From positions 620,001 through 684,000 of the forward strand of contig NZ_JANIDW010000001.1 in NCBI RefSeq assembly GCF_026385475.1: a stretch of 64,000 nucleotides of DNA, given 5' to 3'. The DNA comes from Bombella saccharophila. Its GTDB lineage: Bacteria > Pseudomonadota > Alphaproteobacteria > Acetobacterales > Acetobacteraceae. A program made the position numbers and the translations under genes. Shown one piece after another: positions 2,074 to 33,962 of the stretch (the stretch's first letter is position 1; each line of letters opens with the position of its first letter). The notes under the pieces are model-generated. The model worked only from the letters and a program-made list of their open reading frames with translations. It had not been told where the DNA came from and searched no databases.

Positions 2074-3489
2074 TTAGACCATAGTGCTAATGGGGAATAG
2101 TTTTTTCGATAGCCGATTGGATGCCAATAAACCTAGTGTAGAAAGCAAAGCTCCTCCTGAATGCAGCAACCAAAATATACTATCGGGAATCTGATGTAAC
2201 ATAGCTGCTAATTTACCAACGAGGAGGTTCCCCAAAAAGATATGCAGTGTGAAACACGACATCAATGTCGTATTGTACCGCGATGGTGCATAACGGGAGA
2301 AGAGGGCCATACCAATAGGAAAAGTCATCCCGCAGCCTATATCGTTAACAATATGAAATGCCACACCCCACCAAAGACTCACTTGATGCAGTCTTGGAGA
2401 GAAGAATTCCCCGCTTATTAAAAACAATGGTCCCAATGTTGCAATTGCACTACCAATAATGATTTTTGCCATATCACGAACAGTACCATGATGAAGATCG
2501 TACCATTGCCAGAACCACAAAACGACAAACCCCGTTACCATACTGATGATACTGTCTAACGATATTAATGAACTAACAGGGCACGTAATACCAAGTATTG
2601 TAAGCTGATAATGCTCTTCACCCCAGAGAAGGTACCCGTCCATAATTTCTTGATTGGGAAGCACGCCTATTGCGAATAGAAGAACAAGCCAAAGAAGAAA
2701 CAAAATGCGTTTTTTTTCTCTTTTAGAACAATGGGCTGTAGGAGAACTTTCAATGGAATCTAAGGGATATTGCCTTTCTGATGGTAAATAGTGGCAGCCT
2801 GTAAGATAAAAAAGTAAAGCAATAATCATTCCAGCAGCTGCCGTAAGAAAAGCCCAGTACCATACAATCGCACCTAAAAAAGAGCAGAGAAGAGGAGAAA
2901 TAATTGCCATAATTTGAATACTCTGACTATATATCTGATAAGCATCGGACCGTCGACGATCCTCAAGTCTATAAAGTGCACCAACTTGTGCTTTCAAACT
3001 TCCTGAGAAACCCACACCAACTAAAAATAGTCCTATCGCTATAATAAAGTATTTTTCCACGGCCATGAGGCCGAAACTAACTGTTAACACGCTAATACCA
3101 ATTAAGCTGGAGCGCGTGCGTCCTAAACCATGGTCAGCTATAAAACTTCCTATAAAAGGCGCGGCAAAAATCACCGCCATTATGAATCCAGAAAGACTAC
3201 CAGCAGTGGCGTCCACACCGCTCGGATTATAAAAAAATTGATTAACAGTCAGGAGGGACTGTAACCCTATAACATGCTGAACTCGTTCTGAATGCTGCAA
3301 GAGGTCTTTGAGATAAAGTACTAAAATAGAGAGCATTCCATATTGGGCAAACGATAACCATCCTTCTGTCCCAAAGAGCACCCATAAGCCCTTAGGATGT
3401 CCCCAAATTTCTGTCGCGTTTAAATTTCGTTCGTTAGATGAATGACTAATCATCAGGAGGTTATAACAGCACTTTTGATCTAAACACAC
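2074..3489 (-). CDS. Divergent POT/PTR-family (proton-dependent oligopeptide type) transporter
   Basis: A 471-residue polytopic membrane protein. The opening HPKGLWVLF and the LVLYL run are typical of the POT family of proton-coupled di/tripeptide symporters in the major facilitator superfamily. The family's ExxERFxYYG motif is altered: Glu42 is kept, but Leu45, Ser46 and Gln49 stand where Glu, Arg and Tyr are usual. The TM10 motif usually read as GEL..SPIG appears here as GCGMTFPIG near residue 383, so its Glu is also missing, and the FxxINxG signature is degraded. Proton coupling or substrate may therefore differ. The listed start is GTG; an ATG 12 codons downstream is an alternative and neither has a strong ribosome binding site. 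The gene lies 89 bases downstream of alr on the same strand. Confidence 0.75.
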   Translation of the reverse strand: MCLDQKCCYNLLMISHSSNERNLNATEIWGHPKGLWVLFGTEGWLSFAQYGMLSILVLYLKDLLQHSERVQHVIGLQSLLTVNQFFYNPSGVDATAGSLSGFIMAVIFAAPFIGSFIADHGLGRTRSSLIGISVLTVSFGLMAVEKYFIIAIGLFLVGVGFSGSLKAQVGALYRLEDRRRSDAYQIYSQSIQIMAIISPLLCSFLGAIVWYWAFLTAAAGMIIALLFYLTGCHYLPSERQYPLDSIESSPTAHCSKREKKRILFLLWLVLLFAIGVLPNQEIMDGYLLWGEEHYQLTILGITCPVSSLISLDSIISMVTGFVVLWFWQWYDLHHGTVRDMAKIIIGSAIATLGPLFLISGEFFSPRLHQVSLWWGVAFHIVNDIGCGMTFPIGMALFSRYAPSRYNTTLMSCFTLHIFLGNLLVGKLAAMLHQIPDSIFWLLHSGGALLSTLGLLASNRLSKKLFPISTMV

Positions 3490-3499
3490 TCAAGAAAGG

Positions 3500-3512
3500 A
3501 TTCCTTAGGAAT
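3500..3512. promoter_or_regulatory. Palindrome upstream of the POT transporter gene
   Basis: ATTCCTTAGGAAT is a perfect inverted repeat around a central T, lying just ahead of the GTG start of the transporter on the minus strand. A very AT-rich stretch (about 3516-3533) lies next to it. It could be an operator or part of a promoter, but no specific regulator can be named. Confidence 0.25.
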
Positions 3513-3578
3513 AATCTTATAATATATATTATGCCAACTAATCATAAACCCGCTCTGCGAAACACACAGGCTATTCTT

Positions 3579-4664
3579 TTAATCTTGATAAAAACGATCA
3601 AAACGGTATCCCAGCGACGTTAAAATCTCATAACTAATCGTTCCAGCTTGCTCTGCCATACGGGCTAAATCTTGTTCAGGACCAATCAATGTTAACCAAT
3701 CACCTTCTAAAACAGAATCAGGGGAAAGAACTGTTATATCAACAGAAAGACTGTCCATTGAAATTCGGCCAATTACTGGCAGGGGTACGTTTCCTTTCCA
3801 CAAAAAACCTTTCTGAGCAAAAGAACGAAAAACCCCATCTGCGTAACCAATCCCTACCGTAGCAACCCGTGTGGGGCGCTCAGCACAATAGGTTAAACCA
3901 TAGCCAATAGCTGCTCCTGCTGGAATTTCCCTAATCTGTAATATTTGAGCCTCCAACCCGACTGCAGGACGAAGCGACATATGTGTTTGCTGTTCGGTCA
4001 ATCCGTAAAGACTCACTCCAGGACGGACCATTTCAAAATGATATTCTTTACCTAAAAGAATTCCTGCTGAGGCCGAAAGTGAGCGTGGCACACCTGGGAA
4101 AGCGGCACTCATCCTCAAAAAACACGCGCGTTGCGCCGCATTTGCCGGATGATTTGGTTGATCGGCACACGCTAAATGGCTCATAACCAACACAGGCTTT
4201 AATCTTTGTACATATTCGTTGTGCAACTCACTCTCTGAAATACCAAAACGTGACATACCTGTATCAAATTGTATAGCCGCAGGATAGTTATATCCCTTAT
4301 CATGACAAAAAGACTGCCAATTATGTACTTGTGATACACTATTTAGTACAGGATATAAATTATAATAGGACATGACTTCAGCGTAACCAGGCAAGAAACC
4401 ATGCAAAACAAAAATAGTCTTATCTGGATATAATTTACGCAGTGTAATACCTTCTTCCGGGTGAGCAACAAAAAATGTATTCACCTTTCCAACAAGGGCT
4501 GCCGAAATTTGTTTCATTCCAAGGCCATATGCGTCAGCTTTCACAACAGCAGCGCATTCCGCACCCGAGGCAAAAGCCGCTAAGGATGCATGGTTATGCC
4601 TAACGGCCCCTAGGTCCACCATCAGACGTGCGCTCACTTGCTTATGCTTGCAATATGGCTTCAC
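3579..4664 (-). CDS. alr: Alanine racemase
   Basis: A 361-residue, fold-type III PLP enzyme that interconverts L- and D-alanine in the cytoplasm for peptidoglycan. The PLP lysine sits in VVKADAYGLG (Lys42), and the GIGYADG segment near residue 268 carries the second catalytic residue, Tyr. The RISMDS motif contributes to cofactor binding. Length is normal for the family. The start is GTG, chosen because AGGGGG lies about five bases upstream. It is transcribed divergently from the sphingolipid genes and precedes the POT transporter. The biosynthetic form (Alr) rather than the periplasmic DadX or broad-specificity type is favoured because there is no signal peptide. Confidence 0.95.
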   Translation of the reverse strand: MKPYCKHKQVSARLMVDLGAVRHNHASLAAFASGAECAAVVKADAYGLGMKQISAALVGKVNTFFVAHPEEGITLRKLYPDKTIFVLHGFLPGYAEVMSYYNLYPVLNSVSQVHNWQSFCHDKGYNYPAAIQFDTGMSRFGISESELHNEYVQRLKPVLVMSHLACADQPNHPANAAQRACFLRMSAAFPGVPRSLSASAGILLGKEYHFEMVRPGVSLYGLTEQQTHMSLRPAVGLEAQILQIREIPAGAAIGYGLTYCAERPTRVATVGIGYADGVFRSFAQKGFLWKGNVPLPVIGRISMDSLSVDITVLSPDSVLEGDWLTLIGPEQDLARMAEQAGTISYEILTSLGYRFDRFYQD

Positions 4665-26281: not shown

Positions 26282-27265
26282 ATGACTGAACAACCCTGCC
26301 CTGTGCCGCACGCCCCTCACCTTCGGCATGATTGGACACGAGAGGAAGCAGAAGCCCTATTGGCCCTGCCCTTCCCCGAATTAATCTTCCAAGCGCAACA
26401 GGCACATCGTCAGTTTTTTGACCCTACTAAAGTGCAGATATCGACTCTACTTTCCATCAAGAGTGGGGGCTGCCCGGAGGATTGCGCCTACTGCCCACAA
26501 AGTGCCCATCACGATAAGCGCATGGAGGCAGAAAAACTCATGCCGTTAGAGCGCGTTATCGCTGATGCCAAACGCTCTAAAGAGGCCGGGGCAGGCCGGT
26601 TTTGTATGGGAGCAGCCTGGCGCGCACCTAAAGACCGCGATCTTGATGCCGTATGCCGCATGGTAGAAGAGGTAAAAGCTTTGGGTCTTGAGACATGCCT
26701 AACCATTGGGATGCTTACCCCTAGCCAGTCTGCACGGTTAAAGGATGCCGGGTTGGATTATTACAACCATAATCTTGATACGTCAGAGGATTTTTACGGC
26801 AAGATTATCACCACACGCACCTACCAAGAGCGTTTGGATACGCTGGCGAATGTGCGTGATGCGGGGATTAAAATCTGTTGTGGCGGGATTATCGGCATGG
26901 GCGAAGATAGCCAAGACCGTGCCGGATTGCTCACTACCTTAGCAACTTTACCAACACACCCAGAAAGTGTGCCGATTAATCTCCTTGTCCGCGTGGAGGG
27001 CACTCCCCTAGCTGATGAAGAGACTGTGGATCCCATTACTTTTGCCCGTGTCATTGCCACAGCACGCATTATGATGCCTGCAAGCCATGTACGCCTTGCC
27101 GCAGGGCGTGAAAATATGTCCGAATCCACACACGCGCTCTGCTTCCTCGCTGGGGCCAACTCTATCTTCTGGGGAGAAAAACTCCTTACTACACCCAATC
27201 CTGCCCAGAACCGTGATACCAAACTCCTGGCCATGCTGGGCATGACGCCTATGGTCCACGCTTAA
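26282..27265 (+). CDS. bioB: Biotin synthase
   Basis: A 327-residue radical SAM enzyme that inserts sulfur into dethiobiotin. The [4Fe-4S] cysteines are Cys64, Cys68 and Cys71 in [25 protein letters not shown] and the [10 protein letters not shown] motif are all typical. The end GMTPMVHA differs little from the family. The start is preceded by TTGGAGAG. No other bio gene is adjacent. It is a solitary gene ending at a good terminator. Confidence 0.98.
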
Positions 27266-27316: not shown

Positions 27317-28111
27317 TCACGGGGTGGATTGTGTCTTTTGACTATCCACCACTTGTTGAAGGAGATTACGTGCCTCTTCCTTCTGTCCCATGGCCTCTAA
27401 AGCCTGGGCCTGCAGTCTGAGTGCGCGCCGCATTGATTCGTAATTCAACGCTTCTTCTCGACTTTGCGCAAGACTATGTGCATCATCCGCGGCACGCTGC
27501 CACTGTTGATCCATCAACTCTCTATAAACAAGCAATTCTCGCAAATTCGTCTTATCCCGCAGGTCATGACTTGTAGAAAGATGTGTAATAGATTCTTCCA
27601 GTTGAGGCCTATCCTGCAATATAGCAGCATCTAAACCAGCTACAGCATAAGCTTCTGCCTGGATATCACTATCTCTACTATTACGTGCCAAATTGGCTTC
27701 TGTTAAAGAATCGTGCCAGCGCCTCTGCTCATAAAAAACACTGGCACGAATTAGGTGTAAACCGGCCTGTTGTGCGTCTGTCCAGCCGCGCACGGTAAGG
27801 GCCTGCATCACTTTTTGAACGGTGGCAAGGCAGTCCTGAAAAGCTTTTAAACGCAACTCACTCAGGGCCAGATTAAAACCTGCATCGTAAATGGCCTGCG
27901 TATTATTAGCCAGCAAAGCCCTATCCAACGCAGCTTTATATTGCTGCCGGGCAGGCTTTATATGTTCTAAGGAAAATATGCTATTCCCAACATCCATTGC
28001 ATTTTTATAGCGCGGATCGTTCCATCCTTTTTGATCCCCCCCGCCTCCAAAACACCCTGCGAGCGCTCCTACTATAAACAACGCAAAACCAGGAAGCAGC
28101 CACGACCTCAT
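27317..28111 (-). CDS. TPR-like lipoprotein, last gene of the MCE operon
   Basis: A 264-residue lipoprotein: the signal peptide ends in the lipobox ALAGC, with Cys20 as the lipidated residue, followed by a glycine-rich spacer. The rest is helical with alternating short repeats, as in TPR solenoids (for example the ARQQYKAALDRALL and EEALNYESMRRALRLQ segments). It probably faces the periplasm and serves as a scaffold. It overlaps mlaD by four bases (ATGA), so it belongs to the operon. The usual auxiliary lipoprotein of MCE systems such as PqiC has a different fold. I do not recognise a precise family. Confidence 0.65.
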   Translation of the reverse strand: MRSWLLPGFALFIVGALAGCFGGGGDQKGWNDPRYKNAMDVGNSIFSLEHIKPARQQYKAALDRALLANNTQAIYDAGFNLALSELRLKAFQDCLATVQKVMQALTVRGWTDAQQAGLHLIRASVFYEQRRWHDSLTEANLARNSRDSDIQAEAYAVAGLDAAILQDRPQLEESITHLSTSHDLRDKTNLRELLVYRELMDQQWQRAADDAHSLAQSREEALNYESMRRALRLQAQALEAMGQKEEARNLLQQVVDSQKTQSTP

Positions 28112-29079
28112 GGCTTTACCTCCCGTGCTGGAAGGCGACGCGTTTGAGATTTTTTATGGTTCCCATGCCCACCAAGGAACCACAAACCACGTAACTGCTC
28201 GCTCAACTGTCTAAGACTTTCCGCTGTTGCTTCAGCCTCAGCCAAAACAGACGGTAACTGCTCAGTTGCTTCTGCAACATTATGAATTGTTCGATTGACA
28301 TCTGGGACCGAATTTTTAAAGCCATTTGTCATATTATTTACGTTCTTCATCGTGCCATTAGCTTCATCTAAAGTGATCTGAAGCTTACGCTCTAGTGGCT
28401 GAACATTCTCAATCGCTTGGTTCAGACTGAGAAGAATCGCGTTAATATGATCAGCTGTTTCCTCCCGCGTTAACAGTGCCCCGGCTGTTCCCTTACCCGC
28501 GTGTAAATCCGTCATAATATCACGTGCTTGCTTCGTAATATCCTGAACATTACTCATAGCTGGAAGAAGGCTCGCACGTAGGTCTGTTAAGGTTTGAATG
28601 ATCATATCGGCCGGATTGGGATCAATATTTGTGTTTAAAACTGCGTAGCCCCAATTTAACGGCTGGCCTTGCCCACGACTAATTTCGATATATCCCGCAC
28701 CGGTTACCACTAGACGTCTCTTAATAGTGGCAATGCTATCGCTACGGATATAACGCTCAAAATGTGGCTCAATCGTCCCTTCAGCATACATCCGACCAGA
28801 CTCATTAAGGTCTAGTTTGCGTATCTCTCCAACACGCACCCCCATAACCTCAATATCATTATTAACTGCCAACCCCGCTACACCACTCTCTGGCAAGACA
28901 AAGTGAATACGTCCAGCAGGCGTCAACCATTGCTTCAATAAGCCCGCCTCCACTAGGGTCGCTGTTAGGATTACAATGGCAATTAAGACCAACAATCCCA
29001 CCCATTCATCAACAAAAGTGCTTCGAAATAAGGGAGCAGACAAACCCGTCTGGCGACGTAAACGCAGGGAACGCATCAT
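28108..29079 (-). CDS. MCE-domain protein (MlaD-like)
   Basis: A 323-residue protein with a single N-terminal transmembrane segment (about residues 29-48) and an MCE domain at about 56-145 (VLPESGVAGLAVNNDIEVMGVRVGEI, quoted in parts: SGVAGLAV, NDIEVMGVRVGEI). Residues 150-300 form long helical, coiled-coil-like stretches that resemble the needle-forming tails of larger MCE proteins. MlaD forms a hexameric ring in the periplasm and passes lipids between membranes. The gene lies 7 bases after the ATPase-like gene. Its size is greater than that of E. coli MlaD, in line with other MCE families. Confidence 0.88.
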   Translation of the reverse strand: MMRSLRLRRQTGLSAPLFRSTFVDEWVGLLVLIAIVILTATLVEAGLLKQWLTPAGRIHFVLPESGVAGLAVNNDIEVMGVRVGEIRKLDLNESGRMYAEGTIEPHFERYIRSDSIATIKRRLVVTGAGYIEISRGQGQPLNWGYAVLNTNIDPNPADMIIQTLTDLRASLLPAMSNVQDITKQARDIMTDLHAGKGTAGALLTREETADHINAILLSLNQAIENVQPLERKLQITLDEANGTMKNVNNMTNGFKNSVPDVNRTIHNVAEATEQLPSVLAEAEATAESLRQLSEQLRGLWFLGGHGNHKKSQTRRLPAREVKP

Positions 29080-29086
29080 TCATCTC

Positions 29087-29821
29087 TCACTTTAAGAGTC
29101 CATTATCACCTAGACGAAAACGTTGCATGCCTTGCTGAATATAGCCTGACCATGCAGAGCGCTCCGCCCCGATCCATATAACCGCACAGCCTCGTTCTCT
29201 TGCTGCTGTCAACTCAGTAAAAAACGCATTATAGAGCTCAACCGGCGCAGTAAGACTGACGGGATTTTCCAATAAAAGCAAGGAGGGTCTATTCATAAAG
29301 GCCCTCACATATTCCGACCTCTTTCTATCAAGTACAGAAAGTTTTTCCGGTAATTGCGTAGGCAAACCAGGCAAACCAAATGATTGACATAATTTAACTG
29401 CCTCTCCCACTAAGGTATCATAGGGTGCGCGACTATGGTGTAAGCTTGGCCATAGAATATTGAGATGCATCTCATACAAGTCGATCCAGCCGCTCTCAGC
29501 TGTAATACGCCCTATACGACCACGTAATGCGTTAGCCCTACGTTCATCAAGATCCGACCAATCCAGCCCCATACAACTGACAGCGCCACGTCTCTTTCTT
29601 GTTGCTGGATCCTCTTTAACGGGCAAAATACCTGCACAAAAATCCGTAAACTGAGCTGCCCGAAATTCATCCCGGCATTCTATAAAAACACACTCGCCCG
29701 GCTCGACAAAAAGATTATATTTTACTGGGGGGAGTCCTGTAGAATCTGATGCAGGAACAGCTTCATCCAGTTTCAGGACAAAGTCATAATCTCTTCCTGT
29801 TCCACTGGGGTCATCTGCCAT
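29087..29821 (-). CDS. Degenerate ABC ATPase (MlaF-like) lacking a Walker A motif
   Basis: A 244-residue protein in the place where the ATPase of an MCE transporter (MlaF) is expected. The fold can be followed: PGECVFI precedes the nucleotide loop, and SLLLLENPVS near residue 180 corresponds to Walker B. However, where GxxGxGKS should be, near residues 44-56, the sequence reads IECRDEFRAAQF, with no glycine-rich loop or lysine. The signature LSGGQ reads LSVLDRKR, the Q-loop glutamine is not evident, and the Walker B end is EN rather than DE. It should thus not hydrolyse ATP in the usual way. The start overlaps the mlaE stop (TAATG), with GGGGAG upstream. The frame is intact, so it is not a simple pseudogene. 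Confidence 0.8.
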   Translation of the reverse strand: MADDPSGTGRDYDFVLKLDEAVPASDSTGLPPVKYNLFVEPGECVFIECRDEFRAAQFTDFCAGILPVKEDPATRKRRGAVSCMGLDWSDLDERRANALRGRIGRITAESGWIDLYEMHLNILWPSLHHSRAPYDTLVGEAVKLCQSFGLPGLPTQLPEKLSVLDRKRSEYVRAFMNRPSLLLLENPVSLTAPVELYNAFFTELTAARERGCAVIWIGAERSAWSGYIQQGMQRFRLGDNGLLK

Positions 29822-30639
29822 TAAAAACTCCCCAAAATTACGTCAATGACCACATTAATGACCAATACAGACATAATCCCCCGCGAGAACCCTCGGGGCA
29901 TCAATGTTGTTAAATTATCCTCAGCCGTTATATCAATGCCTGAAAGACAACAACACAACCCTACACTTGACCCACTCAATAAAAACTTCAAAGGGATACC
30001 TATATAATCCACCAATTGCATACTATTAACAACTTCGAAAAGGAAAGACCAAATAGATACTGTAACAATCCCTTTGACCCAGCATGCTACATAACCCGTC
30101 GCTAACGCGATCGCACCAAAAAGCGTTCCGAGCGTGATTCCTCCCACAGTCATCGCAATAGTTCGCGGGACAACGAAAATTAAAAAGGGATCAACCCCCA
30201 TCCCATTGAGCGAACTCAAACGCCCCCCTTTGGTTAGGCCTCCCATTTCTGTCAGCATTAACATGCCAGAACGACCCAATAAAATAACGCCGACCAATAT
30301 GGGTGCCATTTCCCGCAAAAGAACACTAGATAACAAACCACCTGTCATCTGAGACATTCCAGCGAAGCCGAGCCAATACACAGCTTGCGACACCAAACCA
30401 AACCCCGTAAGGCAAGCCACTACGACAACACTAAAAAAACCACCCGCAACCAACTGCCGCAAACTACGACGGAACTCAATGATCACAGTGCGACGCCACG
30501 CGCTAGGATGTAGTATGCTGTAAAAGACACCCCATCCGCCACCAATGACAATAAGAAAAAAACGAGGCAAGGAGCGGGCAAAACGCCCAAGTAGGGCTAA
30601 CCCGATATGGAGTATAGAGAATCGCTCAGAGAAGTTCAT
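29821..30639 (-). CDS. MlaE-type permease of an MCE lipid transporter
   Basis: A 272-residue integral membrane protein of the MlaE/YrbE family. The signature LLREMAPILVGVILLGRSG and the downstream MGVDPFLIFVVPRTIAM motif are clear. MlaE forms a dimer in the inner membrane and passes phospholipid to the MlaD ring. It overlaps the upstream cyclase-like gene by four bases (ATGA) and the ATPase-like gene by one base. The usual acidic motif that follows (AELGTMKVTEQIDAL in others) is here TEMGGLTKGGRLSSL, so the segment that contacts the ATPase has changed. This fits co-evolution with the unusual ATPase. Confidence 0.92.
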   Translation of the reverse strand: MNFSERFSILHIGLALLGRFARSLPRFFLIVIGGGWGVFYSILHPSAWRRTVIIEFRRSLRQLVAGGFFSVVVVACLTGFGLVSQAVYWLGFAGMSQMTGGLLSSVLLREMAPILVGVILLGRSGMLMLTEMGGLTKGGRLSSLNGMGVDPFLIFVVPRTIAMTVGGITLGTLFGAIALATGYVACWVKGIVTVSIWSFLFEVVNSMQLVDYIGIPLKFLLSGSSVGLCCCLSGIDITAEDNLTTLMPRGFSRGIMSVLVINVVIDVILGSF

Positions 30640-33008
30640 TTTTTAACTACCATTCCAACATCCCCCTTACCTGCCAAAATATAGCTGTTAGCTATGCCAC
30701 TCCCAGGTAAAAAGAACTCCCCCCGTAGCCGGAATAAGAACAATCCCTGCAAAATCTGATAAGCACGATCGGAAACCTGTATTTGCCCTCCATCTGGCGC
30801 ATTATGTGCAAGGGCACCAGCCATGGTCAGCCCCTCTCCCCACAAATTAAAGACATCACGATTCTTCCCAAGATGAGCAACCAACACCGCTCCTACATCA
30901 ATTCCAATACGGAACATAAGTCGCGTATTCATATGAGAAATAATCATCAAGCAAACTTCGCGAATACCAATCGCGGCGTCCGCTAAATTTGCCGCTCCCT
31001 CTGAATCAAGCGTTTGAGAACAACTCCCCAAAAAGATGAACCGATTACCAGCCACCTGTACAGAAAAGAGATTATGCTCTCGTGCAATAGATTGAATCTT
31101 GTCCGTTAGCTCGCCTACCAAGTCTAGCATAGCGCGAGCGGCATCATGATTTGAGGAATAGGCTTCTGAGAATTCCAAAACCATAATCGGTACACTTGGG
31201 TACAAACCTGGCTCTGGCATATTGGTTGGATTAGAACTGTCTGTATTAGAACGTAAAAGGAAACCTTCTATAACCCGCAATTGGGGCCTCGCCGACCGTG
31301 AGGCAGACGGCGAAGGCGTTGTAGAAGTTCGGACAGAATCCTCCTTGTTGCCTTCTTCCTCCTGCACCTGTCCAAACCGCACCGCTAGGACGGATGCGAT
31401 TAACATAACAACACGTTCCGCCTCAGTGAGTTGAATAGGGTCTTCAAGCATAATCGCCCCGACGAGGCGATGCTCTTCCATAACAGGCAGCAAAAAGAGA
31501 TGATGGGTATCGATCATGCGCATGACAACACGCTGTACACTTTGTAAACGCGGATCTTCTTCTGCATTAGGAACATCTACAGGATGACCACCTTCAAGAC
31601 ACTCAAATAAACCTGGATGGCCTGTCCGCGTTAGCTCCATACCAAGCCGATGGGCATTACGATCACGATCAAACATATCTTCACACAGAAGCCTGTCACC
31701 ATCAGAAAGTAATCTCCAAATACTAGCGCGTCGTGATACTGATCTTTCAGATAAAGCCTCACATAAGTAAGGCTGCTCTTGTTTTGGATTTAATAAACCA
31801 ACTGTATTAATAATTTTAAGGAGAATAATATTATCTTCTTTTTTTTCCTCACCAAACGTCCCCAACTCTTTTTGTAGACGTTCTACCCGTCGACCTTGAT
31901 AAATCAACCCTGCAGCCAGCACCAAAGCCAAACCAACAATAATAACAGAGAAATAAACAGTTTGATGTTTTACAACCTGTGTAAAATTAGCAAAGTCACC
32001 CTCTGGCGCATTAAGTAATAAAACCCAAGACCGTTTTGCTAAGGGCATCGCCGCTGCGATTGTAACGTAACTTGTCCCACGTGCATGGACAATGCCTGAG
32101 CCATCCCCCATAACGCGAAATACATCTAAAGCACGAACAAAAACAGGCTGTGTCTTTGGGTCTAAACTAACATTGGCGGCATCAAAACCAGGTTTACCAA
32201 TATCAGCCATATTATGACCTGCAATCACATGGCCATCCAAATCTACAATTACGGCCTGTCCACTTTTGCCAACTTTAAGACTATTTACAAACTTGGTGAG
32301 CTGATTAAGAGAAATATTAATTGCAAAGACAATTTTATGACCATCTAAGGCTTGGAAAGCTAATGAAGCTGTTACGATAAATTGACGTGTTGAAAGATGC
32401 AAATAAGGTGCCGTCCAAAATAAACGACGATCAGGCGTTCTACTTTCACGCTCTACAGCCTTTTTATACCAAAGACGCAAGCGAGGGTCATATCCTTCAG
32501 CCGAAAAACGATCCGTCGAGATAAAGCGACCATCTTTATCCGTCACTTTATGACGGTAATAAGGAGCGCCATCCTCAATCTGCATAGTTGTTTCTTCATA
32601 GGCATTATCACGCCGGCTTGCCATCCAAAAATGACCTTGATCATCAGCCAGATAAAAACTATCAACATGCGGCATATCCCGCAAAACTGAGCGACCAAGC
32701 GTCATAAACGTAGCTGCATTTTGCTTAATATCATCGCCTGTCAGCATATTGCTTGCCATGAAGGAAATTCCCGTGGCCGGCGAAAGATAATGGCTAACTT
32801 CTTCTGTAATATATCGCTGTTGACTACGCAGCAAATTACGGGAGAGCGTGATTGCTCCTTCCCGCATGGTGCGATAGGTATAGAGTGTCACTAAAGCAAT
32901 GGTCACGATGACGAGAATGACACCCAAAATCGGCCCAATAAATTGGAAAAGCTGCCAACGCCGTCCGGTGGTATCAATAGCGGGATCAACGATTTCATCT
33001 GTTAACAA
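30636..33008 (-). CDS. Membrane sensor: CACHE - GAF - class III cyclase-like domain, catalytically degenerate
   Basis: A 790-residue protein. Transmembrane segments at about 23-45 and 350-372 flank a periplasmic double-CACHE sensor (residues 50-345); a GAF-like domain (about 400-560) and a C-terminal class III nucleotidyl cyclase homology domain (about 600-780) are cytoplasmic. In the last domain the WGEGLTMAGAL and GGQIQVSDRAYQIL motifs are kept, but the first metal aspartate (usually in FADI) is lost in VLEFSEAY near residue 608, and the second (usually GD) is Asn in VAGNRFIF near 652. Conversion of ATP to cAMP is therefore unlikely. Start is TTG, with AGAAGGGA upstream; a stop lies just before it. 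It heads the MCE operon. Confidence 0.8.
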   Translation of the reverse strand: MLTDEIVDPAIDTTGRRWQLFQFIGPILGVILVIVTIALVTLYTYRTMREGAITLSRNLLRSQQRYITEEVSHYLSPATGISFMASNMLTGDDIKQNAATFMTLGRSVLRDMPHVDSFYLADDQGHFWMASRRDNAYEETTMQIEDGAPYYRHKVTDKDGRFISTDRFSAEGYDPRLRLWYKKAVERESRTPDRRLFWTAPYLHLSTRQFIVTASLAFQALDGHKIVFAINISLNQLTKFVNSLKVGKSGQAVIVDLDGHVIAGHNMADIGKPGFDAANVSLDPKTQPVFVRALDVFRVMGDGSGIVHARGTSYVTIAAAMPLAKRSWVLLLNAPEGDFANFTQVVKHQTVYFSVIIVGLALVLAAGLIYQGRRVERLQKELGTFGEEKKEDNIILLKIINTVGLLNPKQEQPYLCEALSERSVSRRASIWRLLSDGDRLLCEDMFDRDRNAHRLGMELTRTGHPGLFECLEGGHPVDVPNAEEDPRLQSVQRVVMRMIDTHHLFLLPVMEEHRLVGAIMLEDPIQLTEAERVVMLIASVLAVRFGQVQEEEGNKEDSVRTSTTPSPSASRSARPQLRVIEGFLLRSNTDSSNPTNMPEPGLYPSVPIMVLEFSEAYSSNHDAARAMLDLVGELTDKIQSIAREHNLFSVQVAGNRFIFLGSCSQTLDSEGAANLADAAIGIREVCLMIISHMNTRLMFRIGIDVGAVLVAHLGKNRDVFNLWGEGLTMAGALAHNAPDGGQIQVSDRAYQILQGLFLFRLRGEFFLPGSGIANSYILAGKGDVGMVVKK

Positions 33009-33110: not shown

Positions 33111-33962
33111 ATGCGGACACTGATGAAGCGCAACCATCTTTCACACCGTTCTGTCATTTCTTTTACCGGAAGTGAACGGGCTATTTTCCTCCAAGGGTTG
33201 GTAACGAATGACGTTCTTGCTCTTGCCCCGCAACAAAGCTGTTGGACAGCCTTGTTAAATGCTCAAGGGCGTATACAAGCACTCTTCTACCTCTGGAAAG
33301 CGGATGATATCTTATTCCTAGACATCGCCACCGAACATGCTGAGACAATCATCAAAACCCTAAACCGTTTTCGCTTACGCGCAGATGTACAAATAGAGCT
33401 AACAAACTACAGCATTCTCACTGGCCCGGTTGAAACGCCACCACCACAACAGGCGATCCTCGCTGTAAGTGATCCTCGGCACCTTGCTCTTGGGTGGAGA
33501 GCTATTTGTCCTCACCCCATTATTGAAGCCACGGCTGCAAGAGATAATGACTTAATAACACGTCGTCTAATGATTGGCGTCCCTGATGATGCGGACATCA
33601 TACCCGGCCAAACGCTCGTATTAGAAGCGAATATGGATTATTTGCATGGTGTCTCGTGGGAGAAAGGCTGTTACCTCGGCCAAGAGGTCACCGCTCGTAC
33701 CCATTATCGTGGGCTTATCAAAAAGCGGATTTTGCCGATTTCATCACGAGATGGGACACCCCTCCCTGCTGAGGCAGCTATCACGCTTAATGGGCAAGAG
33801 GTAGGGGAACTCCGCTCCTATCACGGCTCTCACGGTCTTGCTCTGCTCCATCGCCGTGCTTGGGAGGCGACTAACCTTATGCTCGGACTATGCCCCATCA
33901 CACTTAATTGGCCAGATTGGCTACCCCGTGAGGAGATGAAACATGACACAGCAGGCCAATAA
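33111..33962 (+). CDS. ygfZ: Folate-binding protein YgfZ
   Basis: A 283-residue GcvT-like protein that uses tetrahydrofolate in the repair or assembly of iron-sulfur clusters, notably in MiaB-type radical SAM enzymes. The diagnostic motif KGCYLGQE lies near residue 186. The N-terminal half has [10 protein letters not shown] and the [11 protein letters not shown] stretch typical of the family. Two ATG starts (33111, 33123) are possible. It overlaps hisI by 20 bases, so the two are translated in coupled fashion. It is divergent from the MCE operon with about 100 bases between them. Confidence 0.93.

Follow-up and report, generated by a model that had tools for sequence, protein, structure and literature searches.

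An ABC nucleotide-binding domain homologue without ATP-contacting motifs in an MCE operon of Bombella saccharophila and other Acetobacteraceae

Organization of the operon

In the window, i.e., the whole stretch of 64,000 nucleotides of Bombella saccharophila DNA that was analysed, a module of five genes is located on the minus strand from position 33008 down to position 27317. The genes encode, in this order, a dCache-GAF-cyclase protein, a MlaE-like permease, a degenerate nucleotide-binding domain protein (pseudo-NBD), a MlaD-like MCE protein, and a TPR-like probable lipoprotein (Table 1). The cyclase and MlaE-like genes as well as the MlaD and lipoprotein genes overlap by 4 bases. The start of the pseudo-NBD gene and the stop of the MlaE-like gene have one base in common, and the MlaD start follows 7 bases past the pseudo-NBD stop, in agreement with the original prediction of an intact frame that is tightly coupled to mlaE and mlaD. 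The operon is bounded by opposite-strand genes at 33111 and 26282-27265.

Table 1. Features of the five-gene operon, with positions in the window
Feature	Position	Strand	Description and basis
dCache-GAF-cyclase-fold membrane sensor (P0005)	30636..33008	minus	790 aa, TTG start; Pfam
Degenerate class III cyclase domain of P0005	30636..31220	minus	profile and residue columns
MlaE-like permease (P0002)	29821..30639	minus	272 aa; Pfam MlaE 102 bits vs 22.5
Pseudo-NBD in the MlaF position (P0001)	29087..29821	minus	244 aa, ATG start, intact ORF
P-loop-equivalent codons of P0001	29654..29677	minus	CRDEFRAA vs GPSGIGKT in E. coli MlaF; register from hhalign
Signature-equivalent codons of P0001	29318..29341	minus	LSVLDRKR vs LSGGMARR in E. 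coli MlaF; hhalign
Walker B-equivalent codons of P0001	29261..29281	minus	LLLLENP vs FDEP in MlaF; hhalign
MlaD-like MCE protein (P0003)	28108..29079	minus	323 aa; Pfam MlaD 42.8 bits vs 25.1
TPR-like probable lipoprotein (P0004)	27317..28111	minus	TPR_2 21.5 bits (cut-off 27); lipobox-like GALAGC read by eye

Pfam matches to MlaB or MlaC were observed for none of the five operon genes, and the membrane subunit is of the MlaE type, a PqiA-type subunit being absent by Pfam. P0002 falls below the NCBIfam MlaE subfamily cut-off (65.7 vs 212.2), as does the genome's own MlaE P0009 with 156.4, and has 14-20% identity with three canonical MlaE used for comparison. The MlaE-like permease still carries the MlaE motifs RE and GR.

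A search with P0001 was carried out in 397 Acetobacteraceae genomes, drawn from a larger group, and gave matches at E 1e-15 or better in 136 genomes and 38 of 102 genera. All 136 family genomes and G481, which belongs to another family of the same class, constitute a set of 137 genomes that was counted per genome; counts over 151 or 145 loci include some genomes twice. The MlaE-like match is present at all 151 loci and MlaD at 150. Except for five loci of genus g111 and one contig end, the cyclase protein is encoded upstream on the same strand (145 of 151 loci). In case of the g111 loci L096, L101, L183, L184, and L188, no cyclase match accompanies the MlaE/pseudo-NBD operon within the sequence examined. 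For 131 of the 151 loci a TPR-like protein was found; the other 20 all have 1,155 bases or fewer downstream of the NBD gene, which is too short for MlaD and the next gene. Our own lipobox pattern matches 117 of these 131 proteins, and among 8 of the 14 misses, some have a lipobox-like Cys outside the pattern and some are cut ahead of the start. In a class sample of 289 genomes, the same 5 genomes carry the pseudo-NBD, the MlaE-like protein, and the degenerate cyclase; G481, the only one of them from another family, has the complete five-gene set. At locus L066, approximately 1 kb (about 3143 to 4122) lies between the cyclase and MlaE-like frames instead of the usual overlap.

Replacement of the ATP-contacting motifs in the pseudo-NBD

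The ABC NBD framework that was originally predicted for the protein in the MlaF position is confirmed by profile comparison. An alignment of 44 family members (A1) matched three MlaF sequences in hhalign over 195 columns with a probability of 98.8% and E 1e-16, and among solved ABC NBD chains the A1 profile reached a best E of 1.8e-19 and 5.2e-16 for MlaF 6xbd. P0001 itself scores 14.8 bits with Pfam ABC_tran (cut-off 25), and thus may carry a hypothetical annotation. Its gene is not among the 32 matches of a PF00005 search of the genome at E 0.001; at E 0.01, ABC_tran is matched by 23 of the 44 family members, with 2.9e-7 as the best value.

The translation of P0001 contains PGECVFI, IECRDEFRAAQF, LSVLDRKR, and SLLLLEN. 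As the original prediction had quoted, IECRDEFRAAQF stands in place of the GxxGxGKS loop and LSVLDRKR in place of the LSGGQ signature. The Walker B residues DE are changed to EN (E185 N186), and K47 and E170 of E. coli MlaF correspond to A55 and N186 of P0001 in the alignment. Since the P-loop columns are free of gaps in the profile alignment with MlaF, the loop was altered by substitution, and neither by a frameshift nor by a deletion. On the basis of these alignments, P0001 takes the place of MlaF, is homologous to ABC NBDs, and lacks the ATP-contacting motifs examined, and the NBD of this operon is almost certainly dead as an enzyme. AlphaFold2 on P0001 and 9 close relatives gave a mean pLDDT of 42 and was unusable for placing the docking on MlaE.

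The nearest named record of P0001 is Parasaccharibacter apium AS1 (100% in the best segment), whose assembly (L034) encodes a protein with 99.6% identity. A frameshift or sequencing error was ruled out, because the P-loop is replaced without gaps and a near-identical gene is present in another assembly.

Motif loss and constraint across the family

The Walker A lysine occurs in none of the 135 informative rows (137 genomes, 2 gaps), which answers the check on orthologues in other acetic acid bacteria suggested with the original prediction, and Ala occupies this column in 101 of the 137 genomes. The P-loop pattern GxxGxGK[ST] is absent from all 151 pseudo-NBD proteins, and the signature Gly-Gly from all 137 genomes, one row being gapped. 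For the Walker B Asp column, Glu was observed in 132 and Asp in 3 genomes; at the catalytic-Glu column, 59 genomes have Asp, 27 Asn, and 11 Glu, and the Q-loop Gln is retained in 33. Almost invariant are R100 and G104 (136 genomes each), W112 (133), and D165 (130). Neither of the two outcomes that the original prediction had named as speaking against it, a shift of the reading frame and an orthologue with an intact motif, was found (gap-free P-loop; 151 proteins, 137 genomes).

Column entropy was computed over 38 representatives with less than 60% identity. Mean values amount to 2.55 bits for the P-loop, 3.08 for the D-loop, and 2.47 for the Q-loop, compared to 1.95 for the whole protein, and to 0.60 for the stretch preceding the Q-loop, 0.34 for FGLPGLP, and 0.88 for the signature helix. 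By this measure, the active site of the pseudo-NBD has drifted, while the scaffold was held. Nei-Gojobori omega was computable for 4 of 7 Bombella-group pairs, with dS >1 in those 4 and saturation in the other 3, and amounts to 0.041, 0.046, 0.060, and 0.092 for the NBD gene. Judged from these substitution patterns, the NBD gene is kept by purifying selection across a bacterial family. The low omega and the same loss in 137 genomes agree with the earlier view that the gene is not obviously decaying, and the family-wide absence of the motifs favours the originally proposed non-hydrolysing NBD. An exception is G149 (L187, L262), in which the NBD frame is shortened to 169 aa and the MlaE matches are fragmentary, including that at this operon; this damage indicates that the module can be lost.

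Descent of the pseudo-NBD

A tree was calculated in which 12 sampled pseudo-NBDs were placed together with E. coli MlaF and 25 NBDs from the window's genome, with G481 left out. The 12 pseudo-NBDs form one clade with 100/100 support and a long stem outside the MlaF group, and the pseudo-NBD profile scores higher with MacB, LolD, and FtsE chains than with MlaF. The most parsimonious interpretation is that the motifs were lost once. Among 299 genomes of the order, the pseudo-NBD and the MlaE-like protein were each found in 153, of which 152 are common to both. The non-shared cases are G327, with a contig that ends 98 bases past the MlaE match, and G149 with its fragmentary MlaE. In this comparison of MlaE-like and pseudo-NBD carriers, intermediates with an intact NBD were not observed at the thresholds used.

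Degeneration of the upstream cyclase domain

Two observations extend beyond the original prediction: the module is conserved across the family, and the upstream cyclase is degenerate as well. PF00211 is matched in all 41 rows of the corresponding alignment (A5), the C-terminal domain of P0005 exceeds the Pfam cut-off, and a comparison of the family profile with solved structures yields an adenylate cyclase with E 1.5e-30. Residue columns were inspected at 145 loci (131 genomes and nine named duplicates). In the aligned register, the first metal Asp is present at none of the 145 loci (3 gapped) and the second at five (L098, L179, L097, L075, and L185; 2 gapped). Due to these five loci, the erosion of the cyclase appears graded across the family. 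In case of the columns that we take to be those of the transition-state Asn and Arg and of the base-selecting Asp and Lys, Asn and Arg occur together at none of the 145 loci and separately at 13 and 7, respectively; the base-selecting Asp column contains Asn at 138 loci, and the base-selecting Lys is kept at 40. P0005 has Glu, Asn, Thr, and Ala at the two metal, the Asn, and the Arg positions, respectively.

An Asp is located three residues past the first metal column at 87 of the 145 loci. If an alternative register is adopted, five loci of other genera (G069, G198, G324, G368, and G380) keep both metal Asp, and neither Asn nor Arg. Direct alignment of one of these five favours the original register, and P0005 lacks both metal Asp in either register. 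According to the profile and residue columns, the upstream dCache-GAF-cyclase protein has lost residues on which class III cyclases depend.

In 24 of 24 genomes, which were hand-chosen and mostly small, PF00211 (E 0.001) has exactly one match, at this operon, and thus no class III partner was seen there. For these 24 genomes, the idea that the degenerate cyclase pairs with an active class III cyclase and regulates it is therefore unsupported. In P. apium AS1 (L034, ORF 2975-4186), the cyclase gene is apparently split by a frameshift or an assembly error, the best ORF comprising residues 389-790.

Other MCE loci in the genome

Two intact MlaF copies are encoded elsewhere in the genome. At L102 (5050-6677), a canonical MlaF-MlaE pair with the P-loop GGSGNGKS adjoins a radA-like gene (read by eye); visual inspection of the ORFs listed for this locus revealed neither mlaD nor mlaC. 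The likewise canonical L103 (4608-8093) comprises MlaE, MlaF, MlaD, and a putative lipoprotein, with the P-loop GGSGCGKS and an N-terminal extension on MlaE. More than one MlaE match was observed in 49 of the 49 genomes searched. An FtsE-like NBD of the same genome (L214, G000:C11:355294-355734) has the unusual P-loop GPAESGKT.

Proposed function and alternatives

Permease, MCE protein, and sensor domains keep their family-defining features. If the operon acts as a unit, lipid passage is the most economical output. We propose that the operon encodes an MCE lipid conduit which is gated by the sensor and does not depend on ATP, the pseudo-NBD serving as scaffold, although we would grant this reading slightly less than an even chance. 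Two pseudo-NBDs would dock on the MlaE-like dimer via the conserved region preceding the Q-loop and hold the dimer without ATP. The dCache domain may sense a ligand in the periplasm and the GAF domain one in the cytoplasm; via the dimer of dead cyclase domains, the signal would reach the complex of pseudo-NBD and MlaE, in a manner resembling the binding of MlaB to MlaF. As output, a route for passive lipid movement, formed by MlaE and the MlaD ring, would be opened or closed, with the lipoprotein as a presumed envelope partner and with energy drawn from a gradient or not required at all. The further-reaching proposal, that an ABC-type MCE permease was converted into a ligand-gated ATP-free conduit with its NBDs as pure coupling scaffold and a dead-cyclase receptor in the regulatory part of MlaB, is advanced with somewhat more reserve.

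Such a use of an NBD has support from E. coli. In PMC7367683, MlaF K47A and E170Q are reported not to complement, whereas MlaB still binds the Walker mutants and its binding to MlaF is independent of nucleotide. Since Walker mutants thus still bind MlaB, the scaffold is separable from catalysis, and since the binding does not depend on nucleotide, an NBD can serve as a docking platform without ATP. Against the conduit count the two canonical MlaF, the occurrence of the module in g111 without an adjacent cyclase, and the damage in G149. A uniform erosion is at odds with the acidic residue that is common at the catalytic-Glu column and with the Q-loop Gln, the cyclase Lys, and the second metal Asp, all of which are partly kept.

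The original prediction had also considered that the permease is run by a borrowed ATPase. The second, complete MlaF to be looked for was indeed found, in two intact copies, and together with the additional MlaE match in all 49 genomes searched this makes it possible that a canonical MlaF from elsewhere drives the MlaE-like permease, with the pseudo-NBD as heterodimer half or assembly factor. A comparable arrangement is given by the mycobacterial Mce1 and Mce4 systems, which, according to PMC9947336, apparently use the common ATPase MceG. Each canonical MlaF of the genome, however, adjoins its own MlaE, the pseudo-NBD remains beside its own MlaE-like gene, and P0002 shares only 14-20% identity with the three canonical MlaE, so that we judge a borrowed ATPase rather unlikely. 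Slightly less weight still is given to a purely sensory complex, in which MlaD, MlaE, and pseudo-NBD sense lipids and the degenerate cyclase relays to a downstream partner with no need for lipid flux. The presence of sensor domains (dCache and GAF) in the operon and the degeneration of both nucleotide-handling domains would fit this assumption, but the five proteins contain no further output domain by Pfam, and g111 has kept the MCE part although no cyclase adjoins it.

That the NBD binds nucleotide in a non-canonical manner, and hydrolyses or senses it, appears improbable. In its favour, the Walker B Asp column is acidic in nearly all of the 137 genomes (132 with Glu, 3 with Asp), the next column is Asp in 59 and Glu in 11, and the Q-loop Gln is retained in 33; set against this, Lys is found in 0 of 135 rows, the signature Gly-Gly is missing, and the former P-loop, D-loop, and Q-loop columns exhibit above-average variability. 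Least credible of all, and close to negligible, is a decaying pseudogene, a sequencing error, or an annotation artefact. The loss of all motifs and the damaged copy in one genome, G149, may give this impression, yet the frame is open with low omega, the 12 sampled members constitute one clade with 100/100 support, and the same loss recurs in independent species among the 137 genomes.

Significance and comparison with known systems

The ATP need of MCE systems is described as open for PqiABC in PMC10897342. In the Mla-type architecture presented here, the ATP-binding motifs were removed by evolution in more than a hundred species and the rest of the module was kept, which makes the question of ATP directly testable. 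If the complex moves lipid, a MlaE-type permease can work without an ATPase of its own; if no lipid is moved, the pseudo-NBD reveals roles of an NBD besides hydrolysis. That cyclase residues were lost along with them suggests that two dead nucleotide enzymes encoded side by side have been put to use in regulation. Provided that the proposed conduit is true, it would represent an ABC-derived machine without ATP in both NBDs, controlled by a second pseudoenzyme of the same operon.

Among the literature matches listed, for which subscription papers were mostly outside the coverage, no description of this five-gene module was found. The operon resembles E. coli MlaFEDB in the MlaE-MlaF-MlaD gene set, in the ABC NBD homology, and in MlaE and MlaD proteins above the Pfam cut-offs. 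It differs from MlaFEDB in an NBD without Walker A, signature Gly-Gly, and Walker B DE, and in the presence of a dCache-GAF-pseudo-cyclase and a TPR-like lipoprotein instead of MlaB and MlaC. Similarly, the cyclase domain of P0005 is like class III nucleotide cyclases by profile, whereas the metal, base-selecting, and transition-state positions are mostly replaced.

The MlaE/MlaF/MlaD core is shared with Mpc, the chimeric Mla-Pqi system, which, according to PMC12436622, differs in that its ATPase is conserved and its permease bears a STAS domain. By gene order and the N-terminal extension of MlaE, L103 looks closer to Mpc than the pseudo-NBD operon does. In the transenvelope bridge MlaEFD of Veillonella, as described in PMC10665443, MlaD is also longer than that of E. 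coli and the genes overlap as well, but MlaF is close to that of model diderms. The Veillonella MlaD bears a beta-barrel.

PqiABC and LetAB are MCE systems with no known ATPase, and PqiC is an outer-membrane lipoprotein. Their membrane subunit is PqiA or LetA rather than a MlaE-type protein, a relic of an NBD is not described there, and PqiC carries an ABC auxiliary domain, whereas the lipoprotein of the operon is TPR-like. According to PMC10897342, PqiA would work passively, via an unidentified ATPase, or with the PMF, and PqiABC thus provides an earlier example of an MCE system for which no ATPase is known.
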